Assembly: GCA_016938675.1 (NCBI GenBank)
Contig: JAFGUF010000033.1
Location: 62,001 to 126,000 of the forward strand
Source: Clostridia bacterium
Lineage (GTDB): Bacteria > Bacillota > Clostridia > Christensenellales > UMGS416
Length of the DNA: 64,000 nucleotides
Direction: 5' to 3'
This document shows, in pieces, positions 15,130 to 29,444 of the stretch; position 1 is the first letter of the stretch; each line of letters begins with the position of its first letter. The position numbers were made by a program, and so were the translations under genes. The notes under the pieces were generated by a model, which saw nothing but the letters and a program-made list of their open reading frames with translations, had not been told where the DNA came from and did not search any database.

Positions 15130-16356
15130 CTACTCTCCTTCATCCTCTTCGGCTTCTGCTTTTTTATTCATTTCATCAGTATATACATAATCGAAGGTCC
15201 AGATATTTCTGTCGTTTTTATATACCCATATCTCCTTACCGATGCTCATATCAAGTATAATATCATCGTCAAAGTAAAGCTCCATTCCCCATCCTTCTAA
15301 TGGCTCAATATCCTCCAGCACCTTTTCATGTCCATGATATGTGTATACCTTTTCGTAGTCGCCATGCGGCACAGCGAATATCGCCTGCATCTGCAGCATG
15401 GTCATCTGAACAATTCCTCCGTCATCCAGCTCGATATCAATATAGTCTAGGCTCGATATATTATCATCAGTAAATCCAAACACAAAGCCTTTCACTTTCG
15501 CCGAATGCTTTGAATCGTCCGATTCTCTTGCTATCTGCCAGTATTCATTGTTTTCACTCTTTTCAAGCCTTATCTCATCGCCTGCCTTCAGGGTGAATAC
15601 TTCGCCGCCTAACATTATTTCAACACTGAAGCCTTCGCCTTCTTTTACATCAAATATATGCCTTCCCTCGGCATCCCCCGCATAATATACGGACATTTCA
15701 CCTTTTGATTTTATTTGCTCCACCATCATGCTATATGGATATACATGCACAGTCTCGCCCTTTTTGTTTTTGACGGTAATGCTGTTTAGGTATATAGTGC
15801 CTTCCTTATTTGAAAGCGGCAGAAAAACGAAGTCTTCAATATTTCCTGTGAACTCCTCGCCAGCAGACTGAATATGTTCTCTTTGATCCAGTGTCCATTT
15901 TCCTTCTTCACTCTTATAAAGCCTTGCTTCCTGCTCTTCAGCCAAATCCAATTCTCCGCCCGTCCTGAAGACAAGCCGCACTTCGTCTATTCCGTTTTCT
16001 TTTTTAGTCTGAAGGATTTCTGTGCTGATAAGCTCTAGGCTGCTATAGAGAATAGTGTACTCTGTGCCGCTTCCTGCTTCAATTATGAATTGTTTTATTT
16101 TATCACCGGCGAATACAATATCCTTAAGAGTTCCTATAATCACAGTCTCATCTGTATGTATATAATTATCTGCGTTTACATGCAGGTCCTGGCTTGTTGT
16201 TATCAGGTAATCATGCGGTGCTTCAAATATTTCGCCCTTTGTCTGCGTTTCTTCCTGCTCTTGTTCATCAGGCATGGCGTAATTGAACGCGACAGCCAGC
16301 GCGGCTATCACGATTAGAGCAAGGCCTATAAATATTTTATTAAGGTGTTTTTTCAA
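15130..16356 (-). CDS. Membrane-anchored extracellular protein of unknown function, partner of the L,D-transpeptidase
   Basis: The start is TTG at 16356 (reads MKKHLNKIFIGLALIV), with GAGGAAAG 5 nt upstream; a TTG at 16386 overlapping the upstream gene is the alternative. The 408-residue product has one membrane anchor at about 9-28 and an acidic extracellular part made of repeated 50-60 residue beta modules. These share the pattern 'G-D-E/K-I-R/K-L-x-x-x-x-x-x-W-x-I/F' (ending WTLDQREH, WQIAR, WTFDYVY). They resemble Kyrpides-style repeats in unnamed clostridial proteins. It is cotranscribed with the transpeptidase gene, so a wall-related role is inferred only from context. Confidence 0.7.
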   Translation of the reverse strand: MKKHLNKIFIGLALIVIAALAVAFNYAMPDEQEQEETQTKGEIFEAPHDYLITTSQDLHVNADNYIHTDETVIIGTLKDIVFAGDKIKQFIIEAGSGTEYTILYSSLELISTEILQTKKENGIDEVRLVFRTGGELDLAEEQEARLYKSEEGKWTLDQREHIQSAGEEFTGNIEDFVFLPLSNKEGTIYLNSITVKNKKGETVHVYPYSMMVEQIKSKGEMSVYYAGDAEGRHIFDVKEGEGFSVEIMLGGEVFTLKAGDEIRLEKSENNEYWQIARESDDSKHSAKVKGFVFGFTDDNISSLDYIDIELDDGGIVQMTMLQMQAIFAVPHGDYEKVYTYHGHEKVLEDIEPLEGWGMELYFDDDIILDMSIGKEIWVYKNDRNIWTFDYVYTDEMNKKAEAEEDEGE

Positions 16357-16378
16357 GTGTCTTTCCTCGCCTAGTTGC

Positions 16379-17800
16379 TTACTCAATTACTATAACAGTG
16401 CAGTTGCCAATATCTACCCAGTCATACATAAACTTCGCATGTGATGTATAGTTCCTTACGCACATGTGGGATTTAGGAACAGTGCCGATAGACTGCAAAT
16501 ATTCAACGTAGCCGGATGGAGACTGTTTATTGCCGTACTTGTCGAAACTGTATGACATCGGCACACCGTGCAGATAGCCTCCCGCTGAAAAACGAATTGC
16601 ATAAGGCGCAAATCCAACTATGGTGGTTGTTCCGTCCTCTACATAGTCAAACTTCGGCTTTTTCTCGATAGCCATGTAGTAGCCAAGCGGCGTCGGCAGA
16701 GAATACTGCCCGACTTTACCGGTTGATGAATAGTTTATTGATATCACTTTCCATCCGTCATCATACTCAAATACTGCAATGTTTTGGTTTTCCCTGTCTA
16801 CTATGATTGCTTGATTCAATACATCCGGGGCGTCTTCGTCTTCATTTAAATATTTGCTTTCTACCCATACCGAAGCATCAAAGCTGGGTATATACAGCTT
16901 CACTGCTTTTACTTCTGTTCCCTCGTTGTATTTTTTTACAGCGTCCTCTTCATCATCATCTTCTTCTGGCTCTTCTTCATCTATGTCGAGATATTTCGAA
17001 TATGCCTTTATATCAGTGAATACACCCTTTTCATCTATTGCTATTGTGTTTTCTGCGGCTTTTGTTTCCTCAATGACCTGCTCTACAATTCCCAGCGTTC
17101 CATCGGGAATATATCTGAATCCGCCTTCCATGCTGGAATCAAAATACCCATCTATGGATTGCCCGCGCCTGTAGCCGAAATCATCATAATATGACCCGTT
17201 AGGCATTACAGAGGGATAGCCATTTTCATTCCTATAATTTTTTACATATACTATATGGCCAAGTTCATGAAAGGTGCTTACATTCTGCAGGTATTCGTTC
17301 ATTTTTTCTAATTGGAATTCTCTTTTAGCTACTTTATCTTCCTCTATATAGCCAATTACAGGGGCATCTTCATATTCGTAAACAACAGCATACCACAGCT
17401 CTCCGTCGCCATCTTTTACCTTTGCGACGACCTGCAGCTTCTCGCCATAGCTTAGCTTGCCGTAATATTCCGCGCCAGTGTCCGCTTCCTTATATATTTT
17501 TCTCCTTGTAGATGAAAGGTTTACAACATAGTTTGGAAAAACGTCATATTTATCATATTGAATATCATATATCAAAAAATCTGGCCATTCTGTCTCGTAT
17601 ATCTCCGACAATTCATAGTCATCAGATAATTCCGGCGTTTCCAGCATGTAGGGTGTCTTCGGCTCATTTTTATCAGCCTGCTCCTCAACAACTGCATTCG
17701 CTAGGGGGAGAAAGTTTCCATCAAATAGCGTCATTGCCCCCATAGCACAAGTGAATATTAAAATGAATGATATATAAATTTTATTTAGTTTACTTCTCAC
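16379..17800 (-). CDS. L,D-transpeptidase (YkuD domain) with SH3-like domain
   Basis: Starts at GTG (17798-17800) with GGAG 8 nt before. 473 residues: signal anchor at about 8-35, an SH3-like wall-binding domain near 95-160, and a C-terminal YkuD domain from about 335. The catalytic region has HGVP, then SHMCVRN with the nucleophile Cys447 and Arg449. The family norm is SHGC, so Met replaces Gly here. L,D-transpeptidases make 3-3 peptide cross-links or attach proteins to peptidoglycan on the outer face of the membrane. The stretch around 268-300 is a run of Glu and Asp. It is the first gene of a pair. Confidence 0.88.
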   Translation of the reverse strand: MRSKLNKIYISFILIFTCAMGAMTLFDGNFLPLANAVVEEQADKNEPKTPYMLETPELSDDYELSEIYETEWPDFLIYDIQYDKYDVFPNYVVNLSSTRRKIYKEADTGAEYYGKLSYGEKLQVVAKVKDGDGELWYAVVYEYEDAPVIGYIEEDKVAKREFQLEKMNEYLQNVSTFHELGHIVYVKNYRNENGYPSVMPNGSYYDDFGYRRGQSIDGYFDSSMEGGFRYIPDGTLGIVEQVIEETKAAENTIAIDEKGVFTDIKAYSKYLDIDEEEPEEDDDEEDAVKKYNEGTEVKAVKLYIPSFDASVWVESKYLNEDEDAPDVLNQAIIVDRENQNIAVFEYDDGWKVISINYSSTGKVGQYSLPTPLGYYMAIEKKPKFDYVEDGTTTIVGFAPYAIRFSAGGYLHGVPMSYSFDKYGNKQSPSGYVEYLQSIGTVPKSHMCVRNYTSHAKFMYDWVDIGNCTVIVIE

Positions 17801-18083: not shown

Positions 18084-20534
18084 ATGAAAAAGAAAATTAT
18101 TGCCATTGCTATTTTTGCTGCTATTTTGGTTTTGTCTTCCTGCCTAAAAGTTGACTTCAATTTACTGCAGACAGAATTTGATAACCTGCTTAAATCCGGC
18201 AGCTATGAAACAGCGAATACGCTGTATACTGCGGCCGAAGACGAAAGAATCGACTACTATAATACTTCGCTTGAGCTATTTTCCGAATCACTCATGCAGG
18301 AAGCATTGAATGACATGCCTATAGAAGAGGCTAAAAGCTCACTTGAGGATTTCCTTATTTTTGATTATACAAAGCCCGCTGTTCAGGCAGCTCTTGATGA
18401 ATTAGCTGCTAAGGAACAAGCAATCATTCAATCTAATACGGATTACGCAGAAGGTTTAGGCCTGTATTTATCGCGCCGATTTGATGAATCTCTGGAAAAG
18501 CTTTCAGCCGTTCAGGATTATGATGTGAATTATGATAGTGCATTGGAAATGATAGCAGAGCTAGAATCACGAGCTGCTATGTGGGAAAATGCTGCTGCAG
18601 AAAATTTATCAGGAAGGAATACCAGCGTAAACTCACTGGCATACAGCGATGGCTATGTGTACTTCCCTGCAAAAAGTGACGGCGTCTATTCAATCGTCAA
18701 GTATAATTATGAAACAGGCGAAACTTCACTGTTTCCTATTATTGAGTTTATAGGTACATTCCATATTAAAGGAATTAACGTTATAGGTGATTATATATAT
18801 TTTATTGCGGGCGAGGAGCTAGGCAGGGGCCTTATGCTTAATTCTCCTTATAATATATATGAGATGAAAACCGACGGCACTGGCCTTGCTATGGTGAAAT
18901 CGGGCGACTATTTCGACCTTATAAGCTATGGGGATACATTCTATGCGCTATCCTATTCAAAGGGAATAGTTAAGATGGATCAGAATCTTCAAAATGAAGA
19001 AATTATATCTGATAAATGGATCATTGAGATGCAGGCAACAGTTGACGGGCTTTATTACATTGAGAAGCTCGAAAACGAATGTGATTCTATACATATACTT
19101 TATCTCTATAAAGATGGTGTAAGCACAGAAGTGATGAGAGAGGAAATGCTGCACGCATATTTCTTTGATACCTTCAGCATATATTACCATGACATGGGTG
19201 AAAACAATTATGAGGAGATATACGTGGCCGATGCATCTCTGCAAAACGCAGAACGCATTGCAACCCTTAAAGACAGCAATAACGGCGACATGTACGGCTT
19301 CATCGGCGCCATCGGGGACAAAGTTATGTTCAATGCCGCAGGCTGGCTGAAGACTACTGCATCCTCTGCATCAATGCGCCAGAGTATATACAGTGAAATC
19401 CAAATCTCAAGGAAACTTGTGGAAAGATTCCAGGATCCCATGTATGTCCCTGACTATGAAGCAATAAATGTCCTATATGAAGAAGGCATGATTCTGGTCA
19501 AATCATCTGACGGCTCGTATTCACTTACGGCGACGCCCGGAAACAACAATTATGATAGAATTGTAAGTATACCTGATTTTGATTCAAATATCCTTAATAC
19601 TAATATGAGCATAATCAGCGAATACCGTCCGGGAGAGAGTGATTTCTATTCAGATGAAGAGGTTGTCGTAGAACTTGATAGTTTCTGGTACTACAGTTCA
19701 CCAAATCTTAACGTAACTATTGAAAAAATATATGATGAGAGCATTGAGACTTTAATTTTCGTTACACATATCAGAACAAAGGACTCGTCCGGCTTCAGCC
19801 TCGGATACAGCAATCTGGAAGAGCCGGGAGTATACACAATAGGCGTAAAGACAGACACCATAGCGCAGATAAACAAAGCTGTATTTGCTACAAACGGCGA
19901 CTTTGGGCTCAACGCGGAAAACAACTGGATAGGCAAAGTAATAAGGAACGGGAGAATATTTGACGCCTATTATAATGACGGCGGCAGGATATCCTTAAAA
20001 GAGTTCACGGTTGAAGAGGTTTATGATACCCCCAGCAACTGCAAAGATTTCCTTGCTATGTACCCGGACGGCACTATGGCGGTCTACTCAAATGCTGATA
20101 AGATTACATACGGAGAGCTTATTGATGCGGGAGTCGAGAACACTATTTCATTCGGCCCGATTTTAGTAAGGGACGGCGAAAAGGCAGAGGCATGCGTAGA
20201 CCCAAGCTATTATATAAGCGGGGCCAACCCTCGCTGCGCATGGGGCATGGTTGAACCGGGACATTATGTCAACGTTGTGGCAGAGGGAAGGCAGCCCAGT
20301 GTAAGCAGAGGTATGTCATTCTATACAATGGGCACCTATTTCCAGCAGCTTGGCTGCAGCGTAGCGTACAATCTAGACGGCGGTCAGACAGCAGCAATTG
20401 CCTTTATGGGAAGATTCCTTAACACTCACCAGAATGATGTTATGTTCCAGAATCACAGGCCAGTGCAGGAAATAATATATTTCGGAACATCAGACCTTGT
20501 TCCATACGATCTGGAAAACTATTATGAAAGATAA
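18084..20534 (+). CDS. Lipoprotein with beta-propeller-like region and C-terminal NAGPA phosphodiester glycosidase domain
   Basis: The ATG at 18084 opens a signal peptide with lipobox LSSC; the open frame upstream to 17946 is not credible. The 816-residue product has a helical repeat region (about 25-165, TPR-like), then a DUF5050-type propeller (about 180-440, repeats such as 'I-Y-F-I-A-G' and 'K-T-D-G-T-G'). The last 230 residues form a NAGPA domain: AVFATNGDFG, NTISFGPILVRDGE, NPRCAWGM and YNLDGGQTAAIAFMG, with the N-G-D-F and N-L-D-G-G motifs of family active sites. These enzymes remove GlcNAc from phosphodiester-linked glycans. Its stop overlaps the PIG-L gene by 11 bases. Confidence 0.87.
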   Translation: MKKKIIAIAIFAAILVLSSCLKVDFNLLQTEFDNLLKSGSYETANTLYTAAEDERIDYYNTSLELFSESLMQEALNDMPIEEAKSSLEDFLIFDYTKPAVQAALDELAAKEQAIIQSNTDYAEGLGLYLSRRFDESLEKLSAVQDYDVNYDSALEMIAELESRAAMWENAAAENLSGRNTSVNSLAYSDGYVYFPAKSDGVYSIVKYNYETGETSLFPIIEFIGTFHIKGINVIGDYIYFIAGEELGRGLMLNSPYNIYEMKTDGTGLAMVKSGDYFDLISYGDTFYALSYSKGIVKMDQNLQNEEIISDKWIIEMQATVDGLYYIEKLENECDSIHILYLYKDGVSTEVMREEMLHAYFFDTFSIYYHDMGENNYEEIYVADASLQNAERIATLKDSNNGDMYGFIGAIGDKVMFNAAGWLKTTASSASMRQSIYSEIQISRKLVERFQDPMYVPDYEAINVLYEEGMILVKSSDGSYSLTATPGNNNYDRIVSIPDFDSNILNTNMSIISEYRPGESDFYSDEEVVVELDSFWYYSSPNLNVTIEKIYDESIETLIFVTHIRTKDSSGFSLGYSNLEEPGVYTIGVKTDTIAQINKAVFATNGDFGLNAENNWIGKVIRNGRIFDAYYNDGGRISLKEFTVEEVYDTPSNCKDFLAMYPDGTMAVYSNADKITYGELIDAGVENTISFGPILVRDGEKAEACVDPSYYISGANPRCAWGMVEPGHYVNVVAEGRQPSVSRGMSFYTMGTYFQQLGCSVAYNLDGGQTAAIAFMGRFLNTHQNDVMFQNHRPVQEIIYFGTSDLVPYDLENYYER

Positions 20535-21948
20535 CAAAACAAAAAAAATAATTTCTTACATATCAAAAACTATCATGTTAGCCATGATAGTTTTTGTATT
20601 ATTTTTGCCTGCTGCTATTGCAGGAAATGAGGCAAGGGACATAACTGAAACAGCAATATACAACGCAAATAACGGAATGTGGGCCGGCTCAACAGTTGAT
20701 GATAATTATGAATCCTACTGGTACACAAATGAAGCGGCATACAAATACCTGGAGATTGAAACTGAAGAACCTGTAAGCTCCCTTTATGTGTGCTATGCAT
20801 TCAAGCCCAGTGAGCTCGCTATACAGATATCTGATGACGGCGATTCCTGGAGAGACTATGTGTATGAATACCCTGATGAATTCTACAACAAAGTATATGA
20901 ATTCGAAACCCCCGTTTCCTTTATCCGGATACGCGGCACAGAGGACTCGCAGGGCAAATTCGGCATTGTTGAATTCAAAACCTTTACCGAGGGTTCATTG
21001 CCTGATTATGTTCAGCTTTGGGAGCCGACATATGACAAATGTGATATGATGATTATTTCCGCACATCCTGATGACGAAGCCGTCTTTTTCTCCGGGCTTA
21101 TACCCTACTACGGGGGAGAAAAAGGCAAAAAAATAATCACCGTCTATATGGCCGTTTTAGACCCCAGCAGAAGGAGCGAAGCTCTGAATTACCAATGGAC
21201 CATGCACCAGACGCATCTCCCTATGTTCGGGCCATTTGAAGATGTATATGAAATGGATAAAAGCAGCTACACCAGAAGCATCTGGGGCGAAGAGGAAACG
21301 CTTGATTACCTTGTAACAATAATAAGGCAGAAAAGGCCAGAGGTTATAGTCAGCCATGACCTAGATGGCGAATACGGGCATGGAGCGCATATATTTACTG
21401 CGTCCTGCCTAAGAAGGGCAGTAGTTCTGGCAGCTGACCCAAAATACCATACAGAATCCTACGAAGCTTACGGCACATATGAGGTTAAAAAACTATACCT
21501 CCATTTATACGATGAGTACAAAGTCCATATGGATGTGTTTGATGAGCCGCTTGAAGCATACAATGGGCTAACTGCAATTCAAGCCGCCAGAAACGGACTT
21601 CTGCAGTATGCTTCCCAGCTTAAATTTGAAGTGGTTAGAGTACACGACAAAGAGTCTAATTTTTCATGCTATAATTACGGCCTTGCATATACAACTGTAG
21701 GGCATGATACAAAAGGAAATGACATGTTTGAAAATATTGAGCCCGAACCCACGCCGGAGCCTTCGCCCTCTGCTACACCATCCATTGAGGATACACCATC
21801 TCCAACTCCTGCAAAGGCAACTGCTGCTGCGACTGAAAGCCCCGTAAAAGCACTTTTGAGCCCTGCTGTTAAAATATTCATTTGCGCTGCTGCAGGCATA
21901 ATATTCATAGTCTGTGTGCTTCTAATAATCACTATTGCAAAAAAATAA
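20524..21948 (+). CDS. Surface-anchored PIG-L family deacetylase
   Basis: The ATG at 20524 lies within the end of the preceding gene. 474 residues: signal peptide (about 1-38, AIAG), a galactose-binding/discoidin-like domain (about 40-150, ending with the strand 'F-I-R-I-R-G-T'), then a PIG-L metal-dependent deacetylase domain with AHPDDE near 174-179 (His and Asp ligands, catalytic Asp), R-x-x-E (RRSEAL) and GEYGHGAH (third ligand). A PTP/SPSPT linker and a C-terminal membrane segment follow, ending in KK. PIG-L enzymes remove acetyl from GlcNAc groups. The topology puts the catalytic domain outside the cell. It is paired with the NAGPA glycosidase. Confidence 0.9.
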   Translation: MKDNKTKKIISYISKTIMLAMIVFVLFLPAAIAGNEARDITETAIYNANNGMWAGSTVDDNYESYWYTNEAAYKYLEIETEEPVSSLYVCYAFKPSELAIQISDDGDSWRDYVYEYPDEFYNKVYEFETPVSFIRIRGTEDSQGKFGIVEFKTFTEGSLPDYVQLWEPTYDKCDMMIISAHPDDEAVFFSGLIPYYGGEKGKKIITVYMAVLDPSRRSEALNYQWTMHQTHLPMFGPFEDVYEMDKSSYTRSIWGEEETLDYLVTIIRQKRPEVIVSHDLDGEYGHGAHIFTASCLRRAVVLAADPKYHTESYEAYGTYEVKKLYLHLYDEYKVHMDVFDEPLEAYNGLTAIQAARNGLLQYASQLKFEVVRVHDKESNFSCYNYGLAYTTVGHDTKGNDMFENIEPEPTPEPSPSATPSIEDTPSPTPAKATAAATESPVKALLSPAVKIFICAAAGIIFIVCVLLIITIAKK

Positions 21949-21972
21949 ATAGTATTACTTGTTATAAATACA

Positions 21973-22001
21973 AAAAGATTGAGTGATGTTCAATCTTTTT
22001 T
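21973..22001 (+). terminator. Terminator of the glycosidase-deacetylase unit
   Basis: AAAAGATTGA-GTGATG-TTCAATCTTTT followed by TT; 24 bases after the stop. Confidence 0.85.
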
Positions 22002-22125
22002 ATTGCGCCTATCTAGGCTGCAAAATATATATAAAACTCGCTTAATCCGCATTTGGTTAAGTGTAATATTTTACTCTTTTTACGTTTTTATTTTAATAAA
22101 CACTCTATTATTAAGAAAATCCCCC

Positions 22126-25245: not shown

Positions 25246-26184
25246 TTATTTATCCATATTCACCGTTTCATCTATTATGTAGATTGGCCTCTGCTTGCTT
25301 TCCTCATATATCCTCGCTATATATTCGCCTACCACACCAAGAGCTATGAGCTGAACACCTGAAAGCATGGTAACGAGTATCATTATTGAGGCCCAGCCCT
25401 GCATCAACGCATTCCCTGTAAATTTTGAAATCAGTACATATATAATTATAGCAAATGAAAAAAGCAAAGTAAGTATTCCAAGTTTTGTGACCAGCTGAAG
25501 CGGCTTAATTGAAAACGAAAGTATCCCGTTAAGAGCAAACCTTATCATCTTTCTTAATGGATATTTTGTTTCACCTGCATATCTTTCATCCCTGATATAT
25601 TCGATAGGGACCTGCTTGAATCCAAGCCACGGCACCATACCGCGTATAAACCGGCTGTGCTCTGTCATTTGGTTAAAAGCGTCCGCTACCTTCCTATCAA
25701 TCAGCCTGAAATCTCCGGTATCTCTCGGTATTTTTGTCTCCGTCAGCCCGTCGAGTACTTTATAGAATAATTTAGCCGTAAGCAGTTTAAATGCTGATTC
25801 GCCCTTCCTCTTCTTTCTTTTTGCGTATACTACGTCATTGCCTTCCTGCCATAGTTTGATCATGTCAGGTATCAGCTCAGGCGGATCCTGCAGGTCAGCG
25901 TCGATTATTACTACGCAGTCGCCCTCTGAATTCTGTACGCCGGCCGTCACTGCCGCCTGATGTCCAAAATTGCGGGAAAACGAAATTACTCGTACATTTT
26001 TGTTTTTTTCTGCTATGCCTTTCAATATTGGCAGAGTTCCATCCCTTGACCCATCATTTACGTATATAATTTCATAATCATATTCTTTTAGAGTGGCATT
26101 CAGCCTTCTGTCGCATTCTTCTGCTACCTCTTCTTCGTAGTACATAGGTACAACAACTGATACTTTAAATTTATCTTTTGTCAT
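25246..26184 (-). CDS. GT2 glycosyltransferase, polyprenyl-phosphate sugar synthase type
   Basis: A 312-residue protein with a cytoplasmic GT-A domain and two C-terminal membrane helices. Motifs: VVVPMYYEEE at the N-terminus, YVNDGSRDGT (about 42-51), the metal-binding DADLQDPPE near 96-104, and GDFRLIDRKV near 160. The helices at about 230-255 and 265-290 match GtrB/DPM1-like enzymes, which load a sugar from a nucleotide donor onto polyprenyl phosphate for export. The sugar and the acceptor polymer cannot be told from sequence. AAAGGACGG precedes the ATG. Confidence 0.92.
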   Translation of the reverse strand: MTKDKFKVSVVVPMYYEEEVAEECDRRLNATLKEYDYEIIYVNDGSRDGTLPILKGIAEKNKNVRVISFSRNFGHQAAVTAGVQNSEGDCVVIIDADLQDPPELIPDMIKLWQEGNDVVYAKRKKRKGESAFKLLTAKLFYKVLDGLTETKIPRDTGDFRLIDRKVADAFNQMTEHSRFIRGMVPWLGFKQVPIEYIRDERYAGETKYPLRKMIRFALNGILSFSIKPLQLVTKLGILTLLFSFAIIIYVLISKFTGNALMQGWASIMILVTMLSGVQLIALGVVGEYIARIYEESKQRPIYIIDETVNMDK

Positions 26185-28086: not shown

Positions 28087-29244
28087 CTATTTGTATATGA
28101 ATTCAACCAGCAATTCATTATTCTTTACGAAGTCTATGCTTATTACGCTCATGCTTCCGTATCTTGCGAATTCCCAGGTGTTGTCAAAGGGCACTGTGGC
28201 ATGCTGTATCTCCAAATCTTTCATAGAGTAAAGCAGCTTGGTATACTTTATTATCTCGTCTTGGGACATATCTGTAAATATCATATTGGGCAGTTTGTCA
28301 ATAATCGCTATTACATCCAAAAGATCCATTTCGCTGATGCGGATTTTCAAGGCCTCAAGCACCTCATGCTGGCGGTCAATCCTGCCGAAATCGGAATCTA
28401 TCTTCCTTATTCGCATAAAGCTAACTGCCTGCCTGCCGTTTAAAAACTTCACTCCTGCTCCATGGGTAACGAAGTTTTCATCAATCGGATGATCATATGT
28501 TTTGTTATAGGCAGCCAGCACATCATTCAGTGCGTACGTTTCCTTGTCTGTAAGGTATACCCGTACTCCGCCGAGAGTATTTATTATTTTCTCTACTCCC
28601 CAATAGTCTGTCAGCATATAGTAGTCTATCCCTATACTGAAGTTTTCTTCAATGGTCTTAATGACACCATCTGGATGGTCATAGAATTGCAGTGCGGCGT
28701 TCAGCTTATTATACCCGCCTTCATTTCCATCCAACCCTGTTAGGAAATCATAATAGACCATTATATCTCTCGCGAAAGATGTAAGCTTTATTTCATTATT
28801 TATTTCATCTATAGTAAGTATCATATTTACGTCGCTGCGAGCATTGTCAAACGCGCCCATTTTCTTTGAGTCGCATCCTATAATCAGTATATTGGTTATT
28901 CCTTCCGGCGTCGGGGAAGGGCTGGGTTTTGCAGTAATTACGGCCTCTGACGGCGACGGGCTGGGTGTAGCCGGCTGAAACTCCGGAAGCCCTTCCACAT
29001 CATCAGTCACTTCAGGTGTTTCAATATCCATACTTGGATTGTTGTTCATTTCGCCTTTATACTCTAAATCTGCGAGTTTATTATATAAAGTAAAAACATA
29101 TATGAAAAGGGCTATCAGCAAAGTCATAAAGACTGCCAGCAATATGACAGTGACTTTCTTTAGCTGAATACCAGGCTTTTTCGTATCTTCGCTTTTTACC
29201 TCAGCCTTCTCTATAGCGGTTGTCTCTTTTTTTTCTTTTTTCAT
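28087..29244 (-). CDS. LytR-CpsA-Psr (LCP) family wall polymer ligase
   Basis: LCP proteins transfer lipid-linked secondary wall polymers onto peptidoglycan on the outer face of the membrane. The start is ATG at 29244, 6 nt after AGAGGTAAG. The 385-residue protein has a Lys/Glu-rich cytoplasmic N-terminus, one membrane segment (about 30-52), a Pro/Ser/Thr linker (PATPSPSPSEAV and PSPSPTPEG), then the LCP domain. The domain has IIGCDSKKMGAFDNARSDVN, SFARDIMVYY, NAALQFYDHPDG and LNGRQAVSFMRIRKIDSDFGR, whose conserved Asp and Arg bind the lipid phosphate. Substrate polymer unknown. Confidence 0.93.
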   Translation of the reverse strand: MKKEKKETTAIEKAEVKSEDTKKPGIQLKKVTVILLAVFMTLLIALFIYVFTLYNKLADLEYKGEMNNNPSMDIETPEVTDDVEGLPEFQPATPSPSPSEAVITAKPSPSPTPEGITNILIIGCDSKKMGAFDNARSDVNMILTIDEINNEIKLTSFARDIMVYYDFLTGLDGNEGGYNKLNAALQFYDHPDGVIKTIEENFSIGIDYYMLTDYWGVEKIINTLGGVRVYLTDKETYALNDVLAAYNKTYDHPIDENFVTHGAGVKFLNGRQAVSFMRIRKIDSDFGRIDRQHEVLEALKIRISEMDLLDVIAIIDKLPNMIFTDMSQDEIIKYTKLLYSMKDLEIQHATVPFDNTWEFARYGSMSVISIDFVKNNELLVEFIYK

Positions 29245-29444
29245 CAATCTTACCTCTGCTCAGCTGCTTATGCGGCCATATTGGTTATACACTTTGAATT
29301 CTTATATTATATTAGCACATCGCAGTACAATTTGAAAGAAAATTAATTAAAGTAAAAAGGTATTATATGTAATTCAAAGAGTATTTTTCAATACAGATTT
29401 ATGTATGGTATAAATACAAAATTACTGTTTAGAAGCCGAAATAA

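Follow-up and report, generated by a model that had tools for sequence, protein, structure and literature searches.

The locus examined here raises the question of whether two surface proteins encoded by overlapping genes work together and, if so, on which molecule. It lies in a window of 64,000 nucleotides from a Clostridia bacterium (assembly GCA_016938675.1, contig JAFGUF010000033.1, positions 62,001 to 126,000 of the forward strand); all positions given below are those of this window. The first gene encodes a lipoprotein with a phosphodiester glycosidase (NAGPA) domain and the second a surface protein with an N-acetylglucosamine (GlcNAc) de-N-acetylase (PIG-L) domain. A sequence-only reading had described the genes as an 11-base overlapping pair, which was confirmed, and had proposed that their products form a two-step surface system that uncaps and deacetylates a GlcNAc-phosphate polymer. 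Comparison across genomes indicated that the NAGPA and PIG-L proteins are almost certainly coupled in function, and very probably the pair acts jointly on some cell-surface molecule.

Linkage was analysed in a main sample of 101 genomes, consisting of the source genome and 100 relatives. Surface-type PIG-L gave 38 domain-level matches in 17 of these genomes (10 of 48 PIG-L rows, which either missed the PIG-L domain altogether or duplicated a piece of a gene already counted, were left out), and 16 of the 38 had a NAGPA domain no more than 3 kb away, compared to 0.96 expected from random placement. The 16 linked matches correspond to 13 loci in 10 genomes, and half of them are fused open reading frames (ORFs). 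None of the 63 other PIG-L matches was within 3 kb of NAGPA, a control that is weak by itself since only 0.4 was expected. Of the 17 genomes carrying surface PIG-L, 16 also had NAGPA, as did 22 of the 84 that lacked it (Fisher p = 1.8e-7, relatedness not corrected). The second pieces of two NAGPA frames also were left out, as were the short duplicate loci L113-L133 and L151-L155 in the GT2/GtrA neighbourhood and PIG-L tree counts given below. In a class sample of 341 genomes, 18 carried surface PIG-L at E 1e-20, and eight of the 17 class loci outside the source order had NAGPA next door (four with PIG-L first, one with NAGPA first and three divergent); one further locus stops 415 bases from the contig end. 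In all five surface-PIG-L genomes of this sample that had a single NAGPA match, the NAGPA gene adjoined the PIG-L gene. A phylum sample of 398 genomes gave three matches, of which one (G784) was outside the class; its PIG-L, with a domain just under the Pfam cut-off, was linked to NAGPA. The search for co-occurrence in relatives that the sequence-only reading had suggested therefore revealed a conserved linkage, in both gene orders, divergent and fused.

Phylogenetic trees were built for 57 PIG-L domains (26 linked, 31 not) and 57 NAGPA domains (23 linked). Starred branches require the linkage to have changed at least eight times among the PIG-L domains and at least seven times among the NAGPA domains; both trees were quick and carried long-branch warnings, and the NAGPA labels rest partly on loci with a 1.5 kb flank, so that some domains labelled unlinked may be wrongly labelled. 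The changes of label on both trees indicate repeated gain or loss of the linkage. The linked NAGPA partners came from several subfamilies, namely the large lipoprotein, a short single-helix form and the fused form. That different NAGPA types repeatedly join one PIG-L clade is the strongest argument that the two proteins have a task in common.

PIG-L and NAGPA were found in one chain in eight ORFs from five genomes. Both PIG-L motifs (AHPDDE and GEYGHGAH in the window protein) were kept in 48 separate domains and one fused domain of the 57, and both were lost in seven fused domains and one separate domain. In three loci (L081, L092 and L093) the motif-less fused protein is encoded directly behind an intact PIG-L gene. 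The motif-less half may represent a duplicated domain kept for docking or binding. Such fusions, preceded in these three loci by an intact PIG-L gene, suggest that the proteins associate physically.

The C-terminal NAGPA domain of the 816-residue protein scored 77.2 bits in a Pfam scan (cut-off 25, E 2.2e-21), and the NAGPA profile matched the structures 3ohg (E 3.5e-16), 6pku (E 1e-12) and 6pkg (E 4.4e-12); the conserved segments R..G, G-R/Q and NLDGG are in common with human NAGPA and 3ohg. The N-terminus is hydrophobic and ends in LSSC, with the cysteine at position 20, which we take to be a lipobox and hence the mark of a lipoprotein. The lipoprotein with a NAGPA domain that had been read from the sequence was thus upheld, and from family membership it would be a phosphodiester glycosidase. 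Between the lipobox and this domain lie approximately 500 residues with no recognised domain, which a very low-confidence AlphaFold model renders as helical and then strand-rich; the models of the two proteins, built from alignments of 3 and 2 sequences, had mean pLDDT (predicted local distance difference test) values of 50.1 and 31.4. The source genome has eight NAGPA matches compared to only two PIG-L matches, and the closest NAGPA paralogue (53% identity) stands without a PIG-L neighbour. On contigs C1, C10 and C21 one of the eight NAGPA genes begins or ends no more than approximately 2.5 kb from the contig start, a position that suggests repeats near these three genes.

The PIG-L domain of the second protein scored 44.3 bits in the same scan (cut-off 28.2). 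A clade profile was made from 25 aligned sequences, the window protein and 24 relatives, in all of which H181, D183 and D184 of AHPDDE and G282, E283, Y284 and H289 of GEYGHGAH were invariant. The catalytic region of this profile matched three MshB chains (E 3.3e-14 to 3.5e-14) and 2ixd (E 3.3e-5), and the AHPDDE and GxYGHxxH motifs of the clade aligned to those of MshB. HPDDE and HxxH are the metal-binding and catalytic motifs of the PIG-L family, and from membership of this family the protein may be expected to be an N-deacetylase. A simple hydropathy scan, from which all hydrophobic stretches reported here were taken, predicts that the PIG-L domain lies outside the cell, between a predicted signal peptide and a C-terminal anchor. 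The architecture of signal peptide, two motifs, linker and anchor was as the sequence-only reading had described it. Its discoidin-like domain was supported by the clade profile, which matched the GH89 chain 4a42 (E 8.1e-7), and not by Pfam alone, where F5_F8_type_C scored 23.5 bits, under the cut-off of 28.2; because of these two results the region is named only CBM32-like. Neither of the observations that had been held to speak against that reading, a lack of conserved linkage and a cytoplasmic PIG-L domain, was made, since the linkage is conserved and the domain is predicted to be extracellular.

We propose, at about an even chance, that the two enzymes form one unit, which is anchored in the membrane, works outside the cytoplasm and remodels a phosphodiester that contains GlcNAc and belongs to the cell's own envelope; that the cell's own envelope is the target is in itself moderately probable. 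The NAGPA lipoprotein would break, or transfer from, a sugar-1-phosphodiester bond outside the cell. The C-terminal helix would hold the PIG-L protein on the same membrane face, the CBM32-like domain would steer it, and it would take the N-acetyl group off the same sugar. Polyprenyl-phosphate-linked GlcNAc in the outer leaflet, or a glycan made from it, would be the likeliest substrate. What the two proteins catalyse and where they lie is deduced from their families, and the substrate and the order of the steps are conjectural. Human NAGPA removes GlcNAc from a GlcNAc-phosphate-mannose phosphodiester, as summarised in PMC12024695; polyprenyl-phosphate sugars are also sugar-1-phosphodiesters, and therefore removal of GlcNAc is proposed for the NAGPA domain. 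Involvement of a polyprenyl-phosphate pathway is a tentative suggestion, to which we give clearly less than an even chance.

The evidence for such a pathway came from the neighbours of NAGPA in other loci. A profile was built from four genes, all neighbours of NAGPA, that encode a glycosyltransferase of family 2 (GT2) with a GtrA-like membrane part, and 123 loci (1.65 Mb) were searched. There were 18 matches, of the polyprenyl-phosphate-sugar type, in 17 loci and 13 families; one of the 17 loci is in the source genome and four also have PIG-L. Of the 18 matches, 17 had their midpoint no more than 2.5 kb from a NAGPA frame (35% of the bases fall in this zone), and all 18 were within 2.1 kb edge to edge or fused. 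A Pfam scan of six of these GT2 proteins found a GtrA domain in L139, L141, L156 and L189 and in neither L078 nor L217. L217 (4504-6606) has a single ORF that combines GT2, a membrane part fitting the GT2/GtrA profile, and NAGPA. In L078 (4581-6800; contig C37 of the source genome) the GT2 gene ends approximately 20 bases before another NAGPA gene; its product has four hydrophobic stretches, and relatives have a similar arrangement.

The PIG-L/NAGPA loci with a GT2/GtrA gene are L139, L141, L142 (cut by a contig end) and L156. A third gene, for a single-helix ectodomain protein, adjoins or lies near NAGPA and PIG-L and is shared by L135, L136, L139, L140, L141, L142 and L156, with a weak match in L137; no Pfam match was found in the four proteins scanned (L136, L139, L140 and L156). 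In the linked locus of the other class PIG-L, GT2/GtrA, NAGPA and the third gene stand in a row. In L196 the GT2/NAGPA pair is followed on the same strand by an undecaprenyl-phosphate-translocase-like gene (PF04018, which we take to be the former DUF368). DUF368 proteins bring undecaprenyl phosphate (Und-P) back to the inner leaflet, according to PMC12826051. A clear GT-C transferase neighbour was not seen at 16 GT2/NAGPA loci: within three genes of the pair, the only ORF of at least 400 residues with at least seven hydrophobic stretches was a MatE gene (L156), as judged from greedy gene calls and a scan that undercounts these stretches (it finds two to four in most full-length GT2/GtrA proteins); L216 has an unidentified 328-residue ORF with seven stretches.

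From these loci it may be suggested, speculatively and at a probability that makes it unlikely, that in these Firmicutes a GtrA/GtrB-type pathway ends with a NAGPA protein instead of a GT-C transferase, and that the sugar is deacetylated on the outside by the PIG-L partner. GT2 would load the sugar on Und-P and GtrA would flip it; the NAGPA ectodomain would hydrolyse it or transfer it to an envelope acceptor, freeing Und-P, and external deacetylation by PIG-L would give free amino groups. The decoration of envelopes with 4-amino-4-deoxyarabinose (Ara4N) would be a functional parallel and not a homologue, as would their decoration with galactosamine.

Several results weigh against the proposed envelope-remodelling unit. 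The pair of the window has no GT2/GtrA gene beside it, the GT2 in view being on the opposite strand and 3.3 kb further downstream, and because of this the polyprenyl link is extended to the window pair from the family. The GT2/GtrA count is partly circular, since the profile was seeded with neighbours of NAGPA; the family spread, the overlapping genes and the L217 fusion are free of that circularity. Among 60 hand-picked NAGPA neighbourhoods (40 from the main sample and 20 from among the matches listed for the class sample, mostly strong or canonical-length matches and not a random set), GT2/GtrA was present in 12 and not in 48. From a GT2 synthase of this sort one would expect lipid phosphates with a beta linkage, whereas human NAGPA is named an alpha-glucosaminidase. 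Seven of the eight NAGPA matches of the source genome have no PIG-L beside them, and NAGPA is missing from the 1.5 kb around 31 of the 57 surface PIG-L domains, in some cases through contig ends.

These unlinked PIG-L domains are what favours an explanation by chance, or by a merely common "surface glycan" neighbourhood. It is highly improbable, since the counts are approximately 16 times the expectation and several gene orders occur, and it is contradicted by the fusions. The view that the pair uncaps and deacetylates a teichoic-acid-type GlcNAc-phosphate polymer agrees with the chemistry that the NAGPA and PIG-L families suit, and Glyphos_transf genes of the TagB/TagF type were found in five of the 18 genomes with a linked pair. 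However, neither these genes nor Stealth_CR2 were found in the source genome, and Stealth_CR2 was present in only three of the 101 genomes and in two of the 17 with surface PIG-L. Stealth transferases make GlcNAc-1-phosphate polymers; with these absences, both a Stealth-type polymer and a TagB/TagF teichoic acid were rejected as candidates. The two-step system that had been read from the sequence has therefore held as a surface pair that belongs together, its teichoic-acid-like substrate is not supported, and a polymer of this type is now very doubtful.

Wall glycopolymers are tied to peptidoglycan by a GlcNAc-1-phosphate-6-MurNAc (N-acetylmuramic acid) bond, which is formed by LytR-CpsA-Psr (LCP) ligases. 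The pair could reverse this step, with NAGPA cutting the bond and PIG-L deacetylating the freed reducing-end GlcNAc. All 18 linked genomes have LCP genes, in the window at a distance of 6 kb from the pair, and the bond resembles the one cut by human NAGPA as summarised in PMC12024695. LCP genes also are present in seven of 14 control genomes, and their proximity is weak: five of 74 NAGPA matches (from 15 of the 18 genomes) lay within 6 kb of an LCP gene compared to 1.2 expected, and three of these five belong to one family. We regard this reversal as distinctly unlikely. Quite improbable too is the degradation of foreign GlcNAc-phosphodiester glycans from diet, fungus, host or competitor, with which the surface location, the CBM32-like domain matching a GH89 enzyme, the multi-copy families and single glycoside hydrolase neighbours (for example, a trehalase in L144) would agree; PMC12419801 suggests a role in inter-organismal conflict for NAGPA with TelC. 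Against it, no glycoside hydrolase or sugar transporter family was matched by more than a single member in the 25 neighbour families that head each tally (53 of 69 ORFs at 11 unlinked loci and 47 of 79 at 14 linked loci, from greedy longest ORFs), and the GT2/GtrA neighbours favour biosynthesis. We prefer the reading in which the cell remodels its own envelope.

In the same tallies, two of the 47 members were the most that any family matched at linked loci; around unlinked loci four of the 53 members each matched phosphatidylserine decarboxylase, CDP-alcohol phosphatidyltransferase and Rho. These three stand together in L145 and are read as the inherited synteny of one genus. The surface PIG-L gene of L145 adjoins PAP2, an LPG-synthase transmembrane region, CDP-alcohol phosphatidyltransferase and phosphatidylserine decarboxylase, and the tally indicated similar genes in L147, L148 and L149. 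A CapA-like gene (PF09587) adjoins the pair in two families (L083, 6988-8391; L085, 8090-9424), and a relative is 4.4 kb from the unlinked PIG-L gene of L111.

The features of the window are listed below. The inverted repeat within the PIG-L signal-peptide codons has a T-rich tail, and the region around the start of the gene (20504-20640) folds with a z of -3.5; the repeat is a possible attenuator between the two genes. The hairpin behind the PIG-L gene may be a terminator, and it was absent from the sites of a consensus scan. In a promoter scan, motif matches were no commoner than in shuffled sequence. The divergent neighbours (15130-17800) are genes for an L,D-transpeptidase (YkuD with an SH3-like part) and a 418-residue single-helix protein of unassigned family, which overlap by 8 bases. 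Together with the nearby ArnC/PgfS-like GT2 gene, the L,D-transpeptidase gene is compatible with an envelope context, without proving it.

Features of the overlapping gene pair and its surroundings (positions of the window)
Feature	Position	Strand	Details
NAGPA lipoprotein gene	18084..20534	+	ATG start, 816 aa; ORF and domain scan
NAGPA domain PF09992 (phosphodiester glycosidase)	19950..20483	+	aa 623-800; NPR, GRQ and NLDGG segments conserved
Surface PIG-L gene	20524..21948	+	ATG start, 474 aa; ORF and domain scan
Overlap of both genes	20524..20534	+	11 bases, ATGAAAGATAA
Predicted signal peptide	20524..20622	+	hydrophobic stretch aa 16-34; end near AIA/G, cleavage site judged by eye
Perfect 14-bp inverted repeat, 5-nt loop	20564..20596	+	within PIG-L signal-peptide codons
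Discoidin/CBM32-like domain	20674..20964	+	aa 51-147; sub-cut-off alone, clade profile matches GH89
PIG-L domain PF02585 (GlcNAc de-N-acetylase)	21049..21420	+	aa 176-299
AHPDDE motif	21061..21078	+	aa 180-185
GEYGHGAH motif	21367..21390	+	aa 282-289
C-terminal hydrophobic anchor	21874..21930	+	aa 451-469, after Pro/Thr-rich linker; short basic tail
Hairpin and T run	21967..22004	+	3' of PIG-L gene; fold z -2.4
ArnC/PgfS-like GT2	25246..26184	-	context, not operon partner
LCP ligase	28087..29247	-	context; 6 kb from pair

Both domains belong to known families. The lipoprotein has its NAGPA domain in common with human NAGPA (the mannose-6-phosphate uncovering enzyme; 6pkg, 6pku) and the bacterial DUF2233 protein 3ohg, but differs in being a lipoprotein, in its approximately 500 extra residues and in its gene linkage to a deacetylase. 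MshB and BshB act on small molecules in the cytoplasm. The PIG-L protein shares AHPDDE and GxYGHxxH with MshB among the PIG-L (LmbE) deacetylases (1q74, 4ewl, 2ixd); in contrast to MshB, it is predicted to be secreted and has a CBM32-like domain and a membrane anchor. GtrA, GtrB and GT-C make up a three-component system of extracytoplasmic glycosylation, as summarised in PMC13390465, PMC11127046 and PMC7117936. A GtrB-type GT2 adjoins or is fused to NAGPA in the 17 loci, with the difference that a single-helix NAGPA protein stands at the place expected of GT-C, and that the window pair has no such neighbour. In surface proteins NAGPA is paired with TelC (PMC12419801) or with calcineurin-like relatives of ShfP (PMC11488536); there also it is one of two enzymes, but the partners differ, and the passages on them do not mention PIG-L. 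Among the matches listed in open-licence literature, titles and the starts of abstracts described neither a PIG-L/NAGPA nor a NAGPA/GtrA pair, and the one listed paper to name both families was a review of human and Candida glycosylation.

NAGPA is widespread, being present in 238 of the 341 class-sample genomes at E 1e-10, and we know of no established natural substrate of the bacterial proteins. Its linkage to a surface deacetylase and to a polyprenyl-phosphate-sugar synthase narrows the question of the substrate to a few direct assays. If NAGPA does stand in for GT-C, it would represent a new class of extracytoplasmic glycosylation enzyme. This could also bear on GtrAB pairs with no transferase in sight, such as PMC7117936 reports for Lactobacillus johnsonii.

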